Source: a virus | IMG/VR virus record: IMGVR_UViG_3300032174_000009 | Location: 1-52,440 of that record | DNA: 52,440 nt | Reading direction: 5' to 3' (one strand) | Shown: positions 4,941 through 30,364 of the stretch, one piece after another | How the letters are laid out: every line of letters starts with the position of its first letter | How positions within the stretch are numbered: the first letter of the stretch is position 1 | Position numbers and translations under genes: made by a program | The notes under the pieces: model-generated | The model's input: only the letters and a program-made list of their open reading frames with translations | Told to the model about the DNA's origin: nothing | Database searches by the model: none

Positions 4941-5641
4941 GCCATAGTTTCCCATGCGCGCATCGCGACCGGCGCGACGTGTTGGGCAATATCCTTCAAG
5001 GCATAAGCGTATTCTCGAATCTCATATTGCGAATGATCGTGACAGCGCAGTGTCAGGAACTTCATTAGGTTTAGCAGATTCACTGTCGCGAACATATGCG
5101 AGTAGGTCGAAACTGGTAGTACGCCGCGCGCTAGCTCTCGCGGCCAGCCGCAATTAAGTAATAGGCGATAATTTTTGAAAGCCTTCGCGCAGGCTTGTGC
5201 GTAGACATGACATTGGAACGATCGACCCTCGTCCGATCCTAATTCTGGGGCTAAATCGCGGGCCTGCTTATTGCTCTTAGATTGCTCACCTACATGCTCA
5301 GGCTTCGGTACATAGAACTCGTCCGGCAGCTCGCTATACCTTCCGCTTACCTCATTGAAGCTCCACGTTCTATGCCGGTGCCATTGCCTGAAAACGAAGA
5401 TCGGCGCCTTGACTTCGAAGGTTATCGTGACGTGCTCGAATGGCGAAGTGTGAGCGTGCTTCCATAAATAATTGATTAGGCGCTCGTCTAATCCTCCCAC
5501 TCCTCCGTCCTCGTCTGCACGCCATGGGGTGTTATATGAGACCCGCGCCGCGCGCGCTATTGAAAGATCGCTGCCCATGAAGTCTACTAGGCGGACGAAA
5601 CCGTGGTCGAGAACGTCTATTTTAGAGCCGAAAATATTCAT
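4937..5641 (-). CDS. thyX: FAD-dependent thymidylate synthase ThyX
   Basis: A 234-residue flavin-dependent thymidylate synthase. The ThyX signature is clear: FRQWHRHRTWSFNEVSGRYS (RHR at residues 89-91). An HAHTSPFEH segment precedes it and a conserved C-terminal region ending in an ALKDIAQHVAP helix follows. It methylates dUMP to dTMP using methylene-tetrahydrofolate and FADH2. It sits in a nucleotide-metabolism and recombination operon with dCTP deaminase and SSB, overlapping both neighbours by four bases. Confidence 0.95.
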   Translation of the reverse strand: MNIFGSKIDVLDHGFVRLVDFMGSDLSIARAARVSYNTPWRADEDGGVGGLDERLINYLWKHAHTSPFEHVTITFEVKAPIFVFRQWHRHRTWSFNEVSGRYSELPDEFYVPKPEHVGEQSKSNKQARDLAPELGSDEGRSFQCHVYAQACAKAFKNYRLLLNCGWPRELARGVLPVSTYSHMFATVNLLNLMKFLTLRCHDHSQYEIREYAYALKDIAQHVAPVAMRAWETMA

Positions 5642-10600: not shown

Positions 10601-10716
10601 ATTTTAGCCAACCGCCATGCCAGCCGCCACCGCCTAGCCCCATGAGCATGAGCAATGACTCCGAAAGCGAACATTGATGCGATTATGAAAATAAATGCGA
10701 TTACACGAACGATCAT
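10591..10716 (-). CDS. Small membrane or exported protein
   Basis: 41 residues: a membrane helix at the very N-terminus (IVRVIAFIFIIASMFAFGVI) followed by AHAHGA and a basic Trp/Arg tail. AAGG precedes the ATG. It could be a signal anchor. First complete gene of the long minus-strand operon that ends near 4614. Confidence 0.5.
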   Translation of the reverse strand: MIVRVIAFIFIIASMFAFGVIAHAHGARRWRLAWRLAKMRG

Positions 10717-10826
10717 TTTTTTGCCTTCTTGTTTGAGAGCGAAGCGTCGAGCCTAAACTCGAAATTCACAACGTCTTCGAGGTTACTAATCGTAGGTTTG
10801 CTTGGCGCTTCGCACTGCTCACCGGG
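10713..10826 (-). pseudogene. Protein-like frame without a start codon
   Basis: Minus-strand frame of 37 codons ending in a TGA that overlaps the next ATG. The composition is protein-like (TISNLEDVVNFEFRLDASLS), but the frame opens after a TAG with no ATG, GTG or TTG early on; only a late GTG would give 18 residues. It may be the 3' remnant of a gene cut near the rearranged region at 10.9 kb. Confidence 0.3.
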
Positions 10827-22206: not shown

Positions 22207-22291
22207 GGCTGACCACTACGAGCCAGACGTTTGCTTCAATTTCTGGCGCTTCAGCATACCGCGCGAGCTAGTACGCGGCATGTTCGAAACG

Positions 22292-22588
22292 TCACTTCAA
22301 CAAAAGTTTCTGGGTACGACGGATAATGTCGTATATTTCAGATTCATATTTGTCTATATCGATGGCATTTGCAAAGAGGAAATCTTCGGGCTCTATGCCT
22401 TCTGACTGGTAGTACAGAGCCATGCACGCTAGCTCGACATACCGTGGTATCCGGTGCTCGCCGGCCTCATATGAGTCATAGGCGTGTTGTGATAGGCCAA
22501 GGGCTTTGGCAGCTCTTTCCTTGCTACGTGTGCCGTAGCCTATTCCGAACATGCGCTCACGCCATGCTTTGAGTGATGCGGGGGTCAC
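22292..22588 (-). CDS. HTH regulator with a capsid-like C-terminal tail
   Basis: 98 residues. Residues about 5-60 form a Cro/CI-type HTH (RSKERAAKALGLSQHAYDSYEAGEHRIP). The last 30 residues (D69-K98) align without gaps to residues 27-56 of the capsid protein at 41287: 17 identities and mostly conservative changes, centred on KYE(S/T)EI(Y/F)DIIRRT, and the DNA is also similar. It is the last gene of the small-gene operon, where acr-aca loci carry their regulator. It probably represses the promoter at 25398. Confidence 0.75.
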   Translation of the reverse strand: MTPASLKAWRERMFGIGYGTRSKERAAKALGLSQHAYDSYEAGEHRIPRYVELACMALYYQSEGIEPEDFLFANAIDIDKYESEIYDIIRRTQKLLLK

Positions 22589-22719
22589 TTCTTGCCCCTC
22601 TTGGCGATCTTACGGCGCAAATTGTTTTTGCCGGTTCCGAAGCATGACGGGAAGCTATACCAATAGTCGCGGTTGAAAGTCTTGTGGCAAACCAAGCATT
22701 TGGCTTCGTTTGTGGTCAT
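22585..22719 (-). CDS. Small Cys-containing protein
   Basis: 44 residues from ATG 22719, preceded by AAAGGAGACAAAGAAA. CLVCHKTFNRDYWYSFPSC suggests a small zinc site. Basic tail. The stop overlaps the regulator start. No family recognised. Confidence 0.55.
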   Translation of the reverse strand: MTTNEAKCLVCHKTFNRDYWYSFPSCFGTGKNNLRRKIAKRGKK

Positions 22720-22740
22720 TTTCTTTGTCTCCTTTTTATT

Positions 22741-22789
22741 CGAGCGGGCGCTCGTGTCTACGGCCCAAAGGCCGCAGAGGCTAGCGTCA
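22741..22789 (-). repeat. Two-hairpin intercistronic element E1
   Basis: Plus-strand reading: CGAGC/GCTCG hairpin (22741-22754), TGT, second hairpin CTACGGCC/GGCCGCAG, then AGGCTAGCGTCA that includes the stop codon of the upstream minus-strand gene. It is followed on the minus strand by AAAGGAGAC and the ATG of 22719. Confidence 0.85.
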
Positions 22790-23095
22790 GTAACGCGCCG
22801 TCGTGTACCAATGGGAATCTGCGCACAGGAATTTATTTGGGTCCCATGAATAGATTCCCATCGTGTCCGATGGTTCGTCGCCACCGAAAGTCGATAGATC
22901 GGTTATGTCGATATAGTCTTCGATAGAGCCATCAAGGCCAGTTAGTGTATTAAGTTCGGCGACACGCTCGTCGAGCCTATTTAGATAATCGCATAGCTGT
23001 TGGAGGCTATCTGCCACTATAACCGCCTTTGTATAGTGCGCTATCTCGGTCTCAAGCTGATCGATACGAGTTTGGTCTTCTTCGATATAGGTCAT
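22787..23095 (-). CDS. Hypothetical acidic coiled-coil protein
   Basis: 102 residues, acidic. The N-terminal half is a likely coiled coil (IDQLETEIAHYTKAVIVADS...LDERVAELN), the C-terminal half is polar and aromatic. Starts in the shared AAAGGAGA leader and ends inside element E1. No family recognised. Confidence 0.6.
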   Translation of the reverse strand: MTYIEEDQTRIDQLETEIAHYTKAVIVADSLQQLCDYLNRLDERVAELNTLTGLDGSIEDYIDITDLSTFGGDEPSDTMGIYSWDPNKFLCADSHWYTTARY

Positions 23096-23114
23096 TTTAG
23101 TCTCTCCTTTGTTT

Positions 23115-23162
23115 CGAGCTGGCGCTCGTATCTGCCGCCAATGGCGGCAGAGGCTAGCGTCA
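23115..23162 (-). repeat. Two-hairpin intercistronic element E2
   Basis: CGAGCTGGCGCTCG, then CTGCCGCC-AAT-GGCGGCAG, then AGGCTAGCGTCA. Base pairs of the second hairpin differ from E1 but pairing is kept. Confidence 0.85.
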
Positions 23163-23258
23163 CTTTCGCACTAAATTCTTGTAGGTTTGAAATCCACACC
23201 TTGCCAAGAATTCGTAGATTTGTTGCAATTCCTCTTCCGTCAGTTTTTCTCTTTTCAT
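23160..23258 (-). CDS. Tiny basic helical protein
   Basis: 32 residues (LTEEELQQIYEFLARCGF core) from ATG 23258, preceded by AAAGGAGACGAAA. The standard leader and the element on each side argue it is a real gene despite its size. Confidence 0.5.
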   Translation of the reverse strand: MKREKLTEEELQQIYEFLARCGFQTYKNLVRK

Positions 23259-23276
23259 TTTCGTCTCCTTTGATTT

Positions 23277-23325
23277 CGAGCAGGGCGCTCGTGTATGCCG
23301 CCATCGGCGGCATAGGCTAGCGTCA
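23277..23325 (-). repeat. Two-hairpin intercistronic element E3
   Basis: CGAGCAGGGCGCTCG, then ATGCCGCC-ATC-GGCGGCAT, then AGGCTAGCGTCA. Compensatory changes relative to E1, E2 and E4. Confidence 0.85.
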
Positions 23326-23793
23326 GTTTCCGAAATAGAAGCATCTCGCATACGCGAGCAATATCTCTTCGGTTGATGTGTAGTCTTTTGAGCCTAAGTC
23401 CTCATCACGCCGAGGCCAAAACTCCGTCCACGGGGTGAACCAATCTTGGACTTCGAGCCAAGCCTTTTCAGGCTCGCTATACTCGTTGAGCGTGCCGCGT
23501 ATGCGTACCGCTGGCCCACCAGTGCAGAGCAATATCTGAAACTCGTCAGGATCTTCGGCCTCGCGACCAGGCTCATGCCAGTCACTACGAACCAGCACAG
23601 ACAACGCGTCCTCATGGATCGCTTGCTCTGCGTCCTCAAGGGCCGTTGCCTCTAGGTCAGTTTGGCCTTCGTCTTTGTCCTCTGCGTTGCGCGCAACTTC
23701 GAGGGCCTCGACCATCTCTTTTATGCTGTTGAATTGAGCTTGGCCTTGCTCTTTGGCATTGGCCATTTTGTCTTCAGTCTGTACGTCGGTCAT
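23323..23793 (-). CDS. Hypothetical acidic protein
   Basis: 156 residues, strongly acidic, the largest gene of this operon. N-terminal third is helical with Asp/Glu clusters (NAEDKDEGQTDLEAT). The C-terminal two thirds look like a folded domain with AWLEVQDWFTPWTEFW. Acidic small proteins of this sort can mimic DNA, but no family is recognised. Confidence 0.6.
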   Translation of the reverse strand: MTDVQTEDKMANAKEQGQAQFNSIKEMVEALEVARNAEDKDEGQTDLEATALEDAEQAIHEDALSVLVRSDWHEPGREAEDPDEFQILLCTGGPAVRIRGTLNEYSEPEKAWLEVQDWFTPWTEFWPRRDEDLGSKDYTSTEEILLAYARCFYFGN

Positions 23794-23810
23794 TTTCGTC
23801 TCCCTTTATT

Positions 23811-23861
23811 CGAGCATTGGCGCTCGTGTCTGCGGTCTGGGGACCGCAGAGGCTAGCGTCA
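23811..23861 (-). repeat. Two-hairpin intercistronic element E4
   Basis: CGAGCATTGGCGCTCG, then CTGCGGTC-TGGG-GACCGCAG, then AGGCTAGCGTCA. The second hairpin has a T-A/C-G pair set found in no other copy, clear covariation. Confidence 0.85.
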
Positions 23862-24095
23862 GTCGTCGCTTCTACGCTGGTTTAACCGCTCCCAATTGCG
23901 CTTGTCATAATCGGCGGAACAGTTCCACACTGGCATTTTGTTTTCTTGTCGCATCATGTCCGTTGCGGTTCTCAGCGGATCGGTCTTTGCCCAAACAGCG
24001 TTTGGACTTGATGGGTATGAATAGCGGGTGCGCTTGGTTTCGGTATCGCCGGCCACGAATGAGCCATCTTTGCCGTAATGATAAACGATTGCCAT
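23859..24095 (-). CDS. Hypothetical protein
   Basis: 78 residues, polar, Arg/Tyr/Asp rich (YDKRNWERLNQRRSDD end). Begins with MAIVYHYGKDGSF. The ATG is in the standard AGGAGAGACGAAA leader and the stop in element E4. No family recognised. Confidence 0.55.
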   Translation of the reverse strand: MAIVYHYGKDGSFVAGDTETKRTRYSYPSSPNAVWAKTDPLRTATDMMRQENKMPVWNCSADYDKRNWERLNQRRSDD

Positions 24096-24119
24096 TTTCG
24101 TCTCTCCTATTTATGTTCC

Positions 24120-24189
24120 GGCGGCTCCGTGCTGGTCACGTGTGAGCACTAGCTGATACGTGATAGTTGGCACGGTCTGCCCAGCCGCC
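24120..24189 (-). ncRNA. 70-base nested stem structure
   Basis: Four nested helices: GGCGGCT/AGCCGCC (24120-24126, 24183-24189), CCGTGC/GCACGG (24127-24132, 24170-24175), TCACGT/ACGTGA (24136-24141, 24158-24163) and a short AGC/GCT. It lies in the leader of the gene at 24095, between that gene and element E5. It could be a cis-acting RNA, a processing site or a mobile-element remnant. Confidence 0.5.
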
Positions 24190-24221
24190 GTCTTTCGCTC
24201 GATTGGTTACGGGCTTTGTTT

Positions 24222-24273
24222 CGAGCTTTGGCGCTCGTGTCTACGGCCCCGGAGGCCGCAGAGGCTAGCGTCA
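24222..24273 (-). repeat. Two-hairpin intercistronic element E5
   Basis: CGAGCTTTGGCGCTCG, then CTACGGCC-CCGGA-GGCCGCAG, then AGGCTAGCGTCA, ending with the stop codon of 24271. Confidence 0.85.
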
Positions 24274-24453
24274 TAGGTAGCATTTAGAAACCCTAAAGCG
24301 GCATTCGTCACCGTTGCAATTCATGCGCTTGGCAATGCGTTGCAGCTCGCGGTGCGGATAGCCCTTAGAAGTTTCAATAACCCCGTCAGGCACACATGAG
24401 CCTCGCGGATATGAAAATATAGCCCAGACCTTGTCTTTTGCTTTCTTAGTCAT
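24271..24453 (-). CDS. Hypothetical basic protein
   Basis: 60 residues from ATG 24453 with AGGGAGAGACTACA upstream. Basic, with two cysteines near the end and an AIFSYPRGSCVPDG segment. Part of the small-gene operon. No family recognised. Confidence 0.55.
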   Translation of the reverse strand: MTKKAKDKVWAIFSYPRGSCVPDGVIETSKGYPHRELQRIAKRMNCNGDECRFRVSKCYL

Positions 24454-24473
24454 TGTAGTCTCTCCCTTGTGGT

Positions 24474-24535
24474 TAGAAGCTTCGCTATGGGCCGCAACGC
24501 GCGGCCCATGCCGAAACTCAAACTTCGTAGCGTCA
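24474..24535 (-). repeat. Divergent hairpin element E7
   Basis: The same position holds a variant: GAAGCTTC, then the perfect nine-pair hairpin ATGGGCCGC/GCGGCCCAT (24487-24495, 24501-24509), and the shared end TAGCGTCA. A diverged member of the element family. Confidence 0.55.
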
Positions 24536-24658
24536 GTCATGTTTGATAAGTTTCGCCATTAAAAGGCCGTCGATGCGAAGAACTTCCGCAAGAACGTATC
24601 CCTGACGGATGAAATAGGCGAATTCTTTAGAGGCGAGGATCTCAAACCGTATTGTCAT
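24533..24658 (-). CDS. Small hypothetical protein
   Basis: 41 residues, helical (KEFAYFIRQGYVLAEVLRIDG), from ATG 24658 with AAAAGGAGACGAAA upstream. The stop lies in the shared TAGCGTCA sequence. No family recognised. Confidence 0.55.
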   Translation of the reverse strand: MTIRFEILASKEFAYFIRQGYVLAEVLRIDGLLMAKLIKHD

Positions 24659-24831
24659 TTTCGTCTCCTTTTGTTTCGAGCTGCGCGACCAGCCTCAAAT
24701 CCGCGTTGCCATGCCAAAACTATTTCACGGTTGAGCGTGGTTTGGCGCGGTTGGCGTATAGGCTTAGGGCGAAGCGCTTCTTGATATCCTTGGTCATAGG
24801 CGCGATTTAATCTAGCCAGATCAGTTTCCAG
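24655..24831 (-). pseudogene. 58-codon frame inside a split hairpin element
   Basis: Open frame whose TGA overlaps the next ATG. Protein-like and basic (LNRAYDQGYQEALRPKP, WQRGFEAGRAARNKRRRK), resembling in layout the neighbour at 24869 (GYKEGFADG...WAGR). No ATG/GTG/TTG at its start; CTG 24831 would be the first codon. It separates the two halves of element E6, so it may be an inserted gene that lost its start. Confidence 0.35.
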
Positions 24832-24871
24832 GCGCTCGTGTATGCCGCCATAGCGGCATAGGCTAGCGTCA
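24831..24871 (-). repeat. Two-hairpin element E6, split
   Basis: Carries GGCGCTCG, then ATGCCGCC-ATA-GCGGCAT and AGGCTAGCGTCA, but the partner TTCGAGCT of its first hairpin lies about 150 bases away at 24675-24682, next to the AAAGGAGAC leader. The element seems to have been opened by an insertion. Confidence 0.75.
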
Positions 24872-25132
24872 GTTTAGCCCAACCCTTTCGCCGATCGTCG
24901 GGTCATCGCCCCAATGATATCGGTCATATTCTTGCCGCCCCGCCCAGAGGCCTCGGTCATACGCTTGGCCCCAAACGCCTGCCTTCTGCTCGTGAGTGGC
25001 GCGGCTTTCGTAGTCTTGCTTGTCGGTCAAACCGTCTGCGAAGCCTTCCTTGTAACCTGGCACATTTGACCAGCGCTCGGCTTCGGTTGGAAAATGTATT
25101 TTCGTCATCGTCTTGATTTTCCGATTTGTCAT
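24869..25132 (-). CDS. Hypothetical protein
   Basis: 87 residues from ATG 25132 with AAAAAAGGAGACGACA upstream. The segment GYKEGFADGLTDKQDYESRA...WGQAYDRGLWAGRQEY has the G-x-x-x-G and W-x-x-G spacing of small ribosome-modulation-factor-like proteins, but this is weak. Ends in element E6. Confidence 0.55.
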   Translation of the reverse strand: MTNRKIKTMTKIHFPTEAERWSNVPGYKEGFADGLTDKQDYESRATHEQKAGVWGQAYDRGLWAGRQEYDRYHWGDDPTIGERVGLN

Positions 25133-25160
25133 TGTCGTCTCCTTTTTTCTGCACCGTGAG

Positions 25161-25306
25161 TGCATTGCAGCGGGCTCCGGTAGCTTCTAGGCCGGCCGAG
25201 TTTTCAGTCTGTGCCACCTCGTGTCCATCTGTGCTGCGTTTGCTTCTTTGTATCTGGTGGCTGAGCTTCGTGATCTGGTAGCCGCCCGAAAGCCCGCTGC
25301 AATGCA
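25161..25306. repeat. Perfect 16-base inverted repeat pair
   Basis: TGCATTGCAGCGGGCT (25161-25176) and its exact reverse complement (25291-25306), 114 bases apart. The right copy is inside the gene at 25204, the left copy in the gap before 25132. They could pair as RNA or be ends of a small mobile insert. Confidence 0.6.
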
Positions 25307-25377
25307 TTCTTCTTTCCGGACCGGGTCTGAGCCGGAGCCTTAGGAGGTGCTTTTGGGGGCCTTTTAGTCTTTCCCAT
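25204..25377 (-). CDS. Small basic Pro/Lys-rich protein
   Basis: 57 residues from ATG 25377, first gene after the promoter at 25398. Very basic N-terminus (GKTKRPPKAPPKAPAQTRSGKK), no hydrophobic core, likely disordered and able to bind nucleic acid. Its DNA holds one arm of the 16-base inverted repeat. No family recognised. Confidence 0.5.
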   Translation of the reverse strand: MGKTKRPPKAPPKAPAQTRSGKKNALQRAFGRLPDHEAQPPDTKKQTQHRWTRGGTD

Positions 25378-25397
25378 TTCCCTACTGCCTATAATAG

Positions 25398-25426
25398 TAA
25401 TATAAGCAAATTTGCGGGAATGTCAA
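25398..25426 (-). promoter_or_regulatory. Promoter of the small-gene operon with operator
   Basis: Minus strand: perfect TTGACA (25426-25421), 16-17-base spacer, ATATTA/TATATT (25404-25398). The spacer contains the perfect palindrome GCAAATTTGC (25406-25415), a good operator. The HTH protein encoded at the operon end (22292) is the natural candidate to bind it. Confidence 0.65.
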
Positions 25427-25585
25427 GCGAATAAGGGTGCCACGCAAGAATAATTTGCTTTTTCGATCACTAATTGTTACAAGAGGCGTGGCGTTGCTTG
25501 AATATTACTGGGCTAATCAGGACACCATAAACCCCGCTATTATTTCTTTGGTTGTGTGCGCGATTATCTTATTCAGGCCGATGTA

Positions 25586-26729: not shown

Positions 26730-26974
26730 TGATTACAGATCCGTTTCCCGACTTGCCGCGCCGAGTTCTCTTTGTGGACAAGGTTCGCAGCCCGAATCAA
26801 ATCGGCACTGTTCCAGCGTGGACAGTGAGCGATGTAACGAAACCTGTAACGAAACCTGTAACGAAACCTGTAACGAAACCTCGCGGCGGCCGTCCGGCTA
26901 AGGGCGATAAACCAATGACTGTCGCGCATCGTGTGAGGTTGCATCGCGCGGCTAAGAAGCTTGGAAGGGGTTAA
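26729..26974 (+). CDS. Basic protein with VTKP repeats
   Basis: 81 residues. A 12-base tandem unit GTAACGAAACCT is repeated four times (26834-26881), encoding VTKP four times; a basic tail follows (GGRPAKGDKP...RLHRAAKKLGRG). The repeat looks like a flexible linker to a nucleic-acid-binding tail. No family recognised. Confidence 0.55.
   Translation: MITDPFPDLPRRVLFVDKVRSPNQIGTVPAWTVSDVTKPVTKPVTKPVTKPRGGRPAKGDKPMTVAHRVRLHRAAKKLGRG
26834..26881 (+). repeat. 12-base tandem repeat, four copies
   Basis: Four exact copies of GTAACGAAACCT in frame inside the gene at 26729. Copy number could vary by slippage without breaking the frame. Confidence 0.8.

Positions 26975-30283: not shown

Positions 30284-30364
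<81 letters not shown>

Follow-up and report, generated by a model that had tools for sequence, protein, structure and literature searches.

The small-gene operon and its spacers

The window analysed here, the whole of a 52,440-bp virus record, belongs to a temperate myophage with genes for an integrase, an SSB, a RecE-like exonuclease, an Erf-like annealing protein, a terminase, a portal and a tail sheath; the closest terminases are about 50% identical, the best of them being found in Brevundimonas phages. A row of small genes is located on the minus strand at about 22,290-25,430 (Table 1). It is headed by a single good promoter candidate, which is conserved in the locus L104 of a related phage, and no internal promoter or intrinsic-terminator-like site was detected on the coding strand of the array, nor was any promoter-like site found on the coding strand of the spacers described below, with a scan of the sigma-70 type only. 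Searches of Pfam and PHROG gave no match for the 87-aa and the 60-aa products. Near the start of the operon (25155-25310), an inverted repeat, GCATTGCAGCGGGCT / AGCCCGCTGCAATGC, was seen by eye. Elsewhere in the window, a 12-nt tandem repeat, TGTAACGAAACC (26833-26880), is translated within an ORF into VTKP repeats, similar VTKP/VTKI repeats being present in the L104 homologue, and a phage-borne tRNA-Met (CAT) occupies the terminase-portal gap (30284-30360).

Table 1. Features of the operon by descending position in the window.
Feature	Position	Strand	Basis
Operon promoter candidate, TTGACA-16-TATATT	25399..25426	-	11/12 consensus matches; same place in L104, 85% identity over 48 nt
Small gene, 87 aa, ending in the TGA of E1 copy 6	24869..25132	-	ORF list; in-frame stop
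5' half of E1 copy 6, from the stop through block 1 and hairpin 1 to the 5' arm of hairpin 2	24830..24871	-	Exact TGACGCTAGCCT; covariance model, 40.7 bits
Insert in hairpin 2 loop of copy 6, headless RMF-like ORF	24682..24829	-	RMF PF04957, 29.0 bits (cut-off 27.9)
3' half of E1 copy 6, from the 3' arm of hairpin 2 through the Shine-Dalgarno to the ATG	24656..24681	-	Sequence
Small gene, 41 aa	24533..24658	-	ORF list
Chimeric junction: TGACGCTA, hairpin X, Shine-Dalgarno	24454..24535	-	X homologous to L104 operon leader; fold about -31 kcal/mol
Small gene, 60 aa	24271..24453	-	ORF list
E1 copy 5	24220..24273	-	Covariance model, 73.0 bits; stop codon in frame
Structure Y and Shine-Dalgarno of the next gene	24104..24216	-	89% identity over 119 nt to L104 operon leader; same fold in both
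Small gene, 78 aa	23859..24095	-	ORF list
E1 copy 4	23809..23861	-	Covariance model, 72.2 bits
Small gene, 156 aa	23323..23793	-	ORF list
E1 copy 3	23275..23325	-	Covariance model, 72.7 bits
Small gene, 32 aa	23160..23258	-	Flanked by two E1 copies; Shine-Dalgarno and stop
E1 copy 2	23113..23162	-	Covariance model, 71.0 bits
Small gene, 102 aa	22787..23095	-	ORF list
E1 copy 1	22739..22789	-	Covariance model, 67.2 bits
Small gene, 44 aa, after E1 copy 1	22585..22719	-	ORF list
HTH-like gene, array end	22292..22588	-	Homologue in L104 locus, 81% identity over 58 aa; HTH_31 below cut-off

As reported in a first-pass annotation, a repeated two-hairpin element, here termed E1, lies between the small genes of this one operon. 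Its near-identical copies are spacers of about 50 nt that span the stop codon of one gene to the ribosome-binding site of the next. They begin with TGA-CGCTAGCCT and hairpin 1; a short linker, ACA in most cases, separates hairpin 1 from hairpin 2 (CGAGC-GCC..-GCTCG), after which come AA, the Shine-Dalgarno and the ATG. The 12-mer TGACGCTAGCCT occurs exactly six times in the window, always on the minus strand (22778, 23151, 23314, 23850, 24262 and 24860), and in each case the preceding ORF terminates in frame on the stop codon with which it opens. Both hairpins of the earlier description are present, but they had been read in the wrong direction: on the minus strand, CGAGC/GCTCG becomes the second hairpin in the mRNA and the stop codon the 5' end of the element.

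Five of the window copies are whole and one is split. The latter, previously listed at 24831 among the clear copies, is indeed a copy, but its two halves are separated by about 148 nt inserted in the loop of hairpin 2, and the 3' half of E1 forms the last codons of the headless RMF-like ORF of this insert. The Shine-Dalgarno and the start of the next gene follow directly in four of the six copies (AAAGGAGACNAAA-type leader), the leaders reading (A)AAGGAGACNAAA or similar. A shared leader and ATG after every copy had been proposed, but copy 5 has no Shine-Dalgarno of its own and is separated from the next gene by structure Y. A supposed seventh, diverged copy at 24474 is instead a chimera, in which the first 8 nt of E1, TGACGCTA, are joined to a different hairpin, X (about 24470-24519), whose homologue lies in the leader of this operon in L104. 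In the operon leader of the related phage L104/L013, X directly adjoins Y (L104 12351-12518), whereas in the window a gene plus E1 lies between them. When Y was searched for elsewhere, the one match obtained, in L217, was discarded as a chance coding match.

The window copies share 86% identity with each other and 87% with those of other phages, so they are not the product of a recent local amplification.

Pairing and predicted folding of E1

In an alignment made without reference to structure, all cells of both E1 helices were found to pair, and hairpin 1 showed compensatory changes at six of its nine pairs with 100% pairing, whereas partners slid by one to three columns paired in 22-41% of cells. 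With 29 distinct copies, hairpin 1 was still 100% paired with six covarying pairs, in an alignment that was fitted to the covariance model and in which related sequences are counted repeatedly. The earlier observation of a hairpin with changing sequence and kept pairing is therefore borne out, with the variants as described and with covariation both in the window and in other phages. Wobbles in hairpin 1 are few; read on the mRNA strand they are always G-U, never A-C, and although the sample is small this points to RNA of that strand.

Hairpin 2, of 5-6 bp, hardly varies across copies, and for this reason its pairing is not open to a covariation test. It was nevertheless present in every genuine copy, even in those recovered by two scans that left hairpin 2 open; as these scans gave no genuine element lacking it, hairpin 2 is a fixed part of E1. 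The orientation is fixed also: every genuine copy examined lies on the sense strand, from upstream stop to downstream start. In eight of nine window-group copies the upstream gene takes its stop codon from the conserved 5' block. In L013 that gene stops 22 nt before E1 begins, and in the second group of phages described below 2-6 nt before it, so that an overlapping stop is not essential to the element.

Single E1 copies folded 2.8-4.4 SD below shuffled sequences, with helices of 9-12 bp. The predicted unpaired fraction of the Shine-Dalgarno was about half (0.33-0.59), which does not amount to a clearly open start. In three window copies an alternative outer stem (CGCT/AGCG) was favoured over hairpin 2, with probability 0.77-0.78, whereas hairpin 2 was the main predicted fold in L008, L104 and nearly all second-group copies.

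Relatives of E1 and turnover of neighbouring genes

Degenerate scans of IMG/VR revealed one whole E1 each in three related phage contigs, L008, L013 and L063. About 20 other virus contigs, referred to here as the second group, carry a second subfamily, GACGCAAGTCT. A covariance-model search had been proposed in the first-pass annotation; with a model built from 11 copies, genuine members scored 38-77 bits and other matches in the searched loci about 22 bits or less, and the pairing of hairpin 1 was conserved in the homologous copies. A search for more relatives through a flanking protein returned only L013 and L104.

The E1 family thus recurs in other uncultured phages; the cultured-phage and bacterial collections that were searched did not yield it. 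By blastn against cultured phages, neither a window E1 copy nor the second element described below gave a match, and a second-group copy gave weak partial ones. Rfam 15 gave no match at or above the gathering score for E1, and none in the array at E up to 1. A host-derived repeat was rejected with one strict pattern, the single pattern used, which gave two chance matches without the hairpins in 84,980 species genomes; a match in a Streptomyces decoyicus plasmid was also rejected, as it lacks hairpin 1. No E1 is located upstream of the clamp-like genes of phages Bcep781 and BcepC6B. In Burkholderia phage BcepC6B (L162 5920-5995), an unrelated long hairpin lies just 5' of the Shine-Dalgarno of that gene. 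No description of E1 was found in the literature searched, which leaves out most subscription papers, and its newness is accordingly provisional.

At further second-group junctions a second element, E2 (TGAC-GCGCTAAGG-hairpin-CTCATAGCGCGCCA...), has the same stop-to-start layout as E1. Its hairpin occurs in three compensated sequences, its outer stem is strong (GCGCTA/TAGCGC), and two E2 are sometimes found per contig. With the sequence TGAC-GCGCTAAGG...TAGCGCGCCA..., E2 was seen in L039, L059, L108, L110, L125, L130, L139 and others, and some second-group contigs carry a further hairpin type 3' of the clamp-like gene. The second-group phages appear to draw on a small repertoire of structured connectors. 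An intergenic segment flanked by GCGAAGCGCC and GGCGCTTC-type arms, present in the left operon of the window (10716-10826), in L008 (about 5150-5270) and in L063, is perhaps one more connector family.

The genes joined by these elements differ between phages. At the L104 locus only the last gene of the array, the HTH-like one, has a homologue, while the promoter, E1, X and Y are kept; between the window and L104, the connectors have outlived the genes. In second-group contigs, the same beta-clamp-like gene follows E1 while the gene before E1 is of several unrelated kinds, one upstream gene is combined with three different genes downstream, and 122 of 210 pairs of copies share only one flank. 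Both neighbours were kept at 8% of E1 boundaries compared to 41% of all element-free boundaries; no local control was applied in this comparison. When boundaries within 2.5 kb of an element were compared, conserved adjacency was 14% (E1 and E2) compared to 28% at neighbouring boundaries, and 788 of 2000 within-contig permutations gave values as low; much of the former contrast is therefore regional. Gene content around the elements turns over, but not significantly more than at neighbouring boundaries. Element-specific recombination, for which the case looked strong without the local control, is not seen above the local background, and a role in recombination is no more than possible.

These data bear on the leading alternative for the function of E1, which we consider doubtful: that it is chiefly a recombination patch, whose border homology would let annealing recombinases swap or insert units of gene plus element, its structure being secondary. 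The connectors common to the window and L104 where the genes are not, the splitting of X from Y by a gene plus E1, the second-group pairs with a single common flank, the RecE-like and Erf-like proteins of the window phage and the fact that window copies are no closer to one another than to copies in other phages are all in its favour. Against it, turnover does not significantly exceed the local background, and homology alone does not explain the compensatory changes of hairpin 1. Of the two roles offered in the first-pass annotation, structured RNA or recombination unit, the covariation of hairpin 1 supports the former.

E1 as a candidate mRNA punctuation element

The reading that we favour, at a probability of slightly over one half, is that E1 punctuates the mRNA, as a structured element closing one cistron and presenting the one after it. 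It is based on the covariation of hairpin 1, its G-U wobbles on the mRNA strand and the stop-to-start position; on the constant presence of hairpin 2 in an array with one conserved upstream promoter and no internal promoter or terminator; and on the conservation of promoter, E1, X and Y in L104 despite differing genes, together with the same layout in E2. Ribosomes would finish on the TGA inside E1, the hairpins would hold gene-internal sequence off the ribosome-binding site that follows and protect the intergenic mRNA, and each gene would have a clean start of its own. The fixed sequence of hairpin 2 suggests that it may be recognised by a protein or by the ribosome. E1 may act on translation, decay or protein binding. 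The near-invariance of hairpin 2, the half-unpaired Shine-Dalgarno, the outer stem favoured in some window copies and the non-universal overlapping stop count against this reading. Since the same sequence of about 50 nt is present at many junctions and RecE-like and Erf-like recombinases are encoded, E1 might in addition provide patches of homology through which genes are exchanged.

The nearest analogues of E1 are the PeSLs of T4-like phages and the ESAS of mycobacteriophages, but E1 lacks defining features of each. PeSLs are repeated intergenic stem-loops with an early promoter and a terminator stem-loop, tied to gene shuffling (PMC4503421, citing Arbiol et al. 2010; Comeau et al. 2014). E1 resembles them as repeated intergenic stem-loops in a plastic phage region, the array genes other than the last differing from those of L104. 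E1 differs in having no early promoter inside it (sigma-70 type scan), and no terminator stem-loop with a U run on the array coding strand, and in its order of stop codon, two hairpins and then Shine-Dalgarno. In cluster K mycobacteriophages, SAS and ESAS are repeats of unknown function just 5' of non-structural gene starts, SAS being a fixed 13-bp GGGATAGGAGCCC at the start site and ESAS 17-bp inverted repeats that keep their consensus (PMC3203893). The likeness to start-associated sequences drawn in the first-pass annotation holds by position only, just upstream of start codons. Neither the 13-bp SAS in the E1 leaders nor the 17-bp consensus repeats of ESAS in E1 were found; hairpin 1 varies with compensation, and E1 adds a fixed second hairpin and an upstream stop codon.

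Hairpins between genes of one transcript could also be processing or stability sites at which an RNase, for example RNase III, cuts or binds, and the lack of promoter and terminator in the array fits such a role. RNase III sites of this type are found in the early mRNA of T7, and their helices usually have roughly two turns. The helices of E1 are shorter than this usual length and in tandem, and they are tied to a stop codon and a Shine-Dalgarno; the fixed block 1 and its embedded stop codon would be left unexplained, and we regard an RNase site as unlikely. Slightly less probable still is that a small promoterless gene and its trailing E1 or E2 form a mobile unit, swapped or inserted at the element as a counterpart of an integron cassette array, with E1 acting also as mRNA punctuation. 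A translational-coupling switch, in which the outer stem would exclude hairpin 2 unless an upstream ribosome covers block 1, is very improbable: the three window copies that favour the outer stem and the strong outer stem of E2 agree with it, but hairpin 2 dominates in L008, L104 and nearly all second-group copies, the alternative is not conserved, and the switch was rejected.

Integron attC sites are structured sites that trail genes in promoterless arrays, with conserved ends and a variable stem. The least probable reading is that E1 is a site of this kind, folded in single-stranded DNA and used by a site-specific recombinase: it likewise trails small genes behind one promoter, with fixed orientation and a stem of variable sequence and conserved pairing, but the R'/R'' core boxes GTTRRRY and RYYYAAC are absent from the aligned copies, the only integrase seen in the window is of phage type and 18 kb from the array, and the G-U wobbles point to mRNA.

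Repeated intergenic stem-loops are known in a few phage groups. In E1 the covariation is strong, the second hairpin is fixed and a stop codon is built in, and with about 30 genuine copies across two phage groups its structure and sequence are separately testable. It provides a concrete test case of how small, ever-changing phage genes may be kept expressible through standard structured connectors that outlast the genes.
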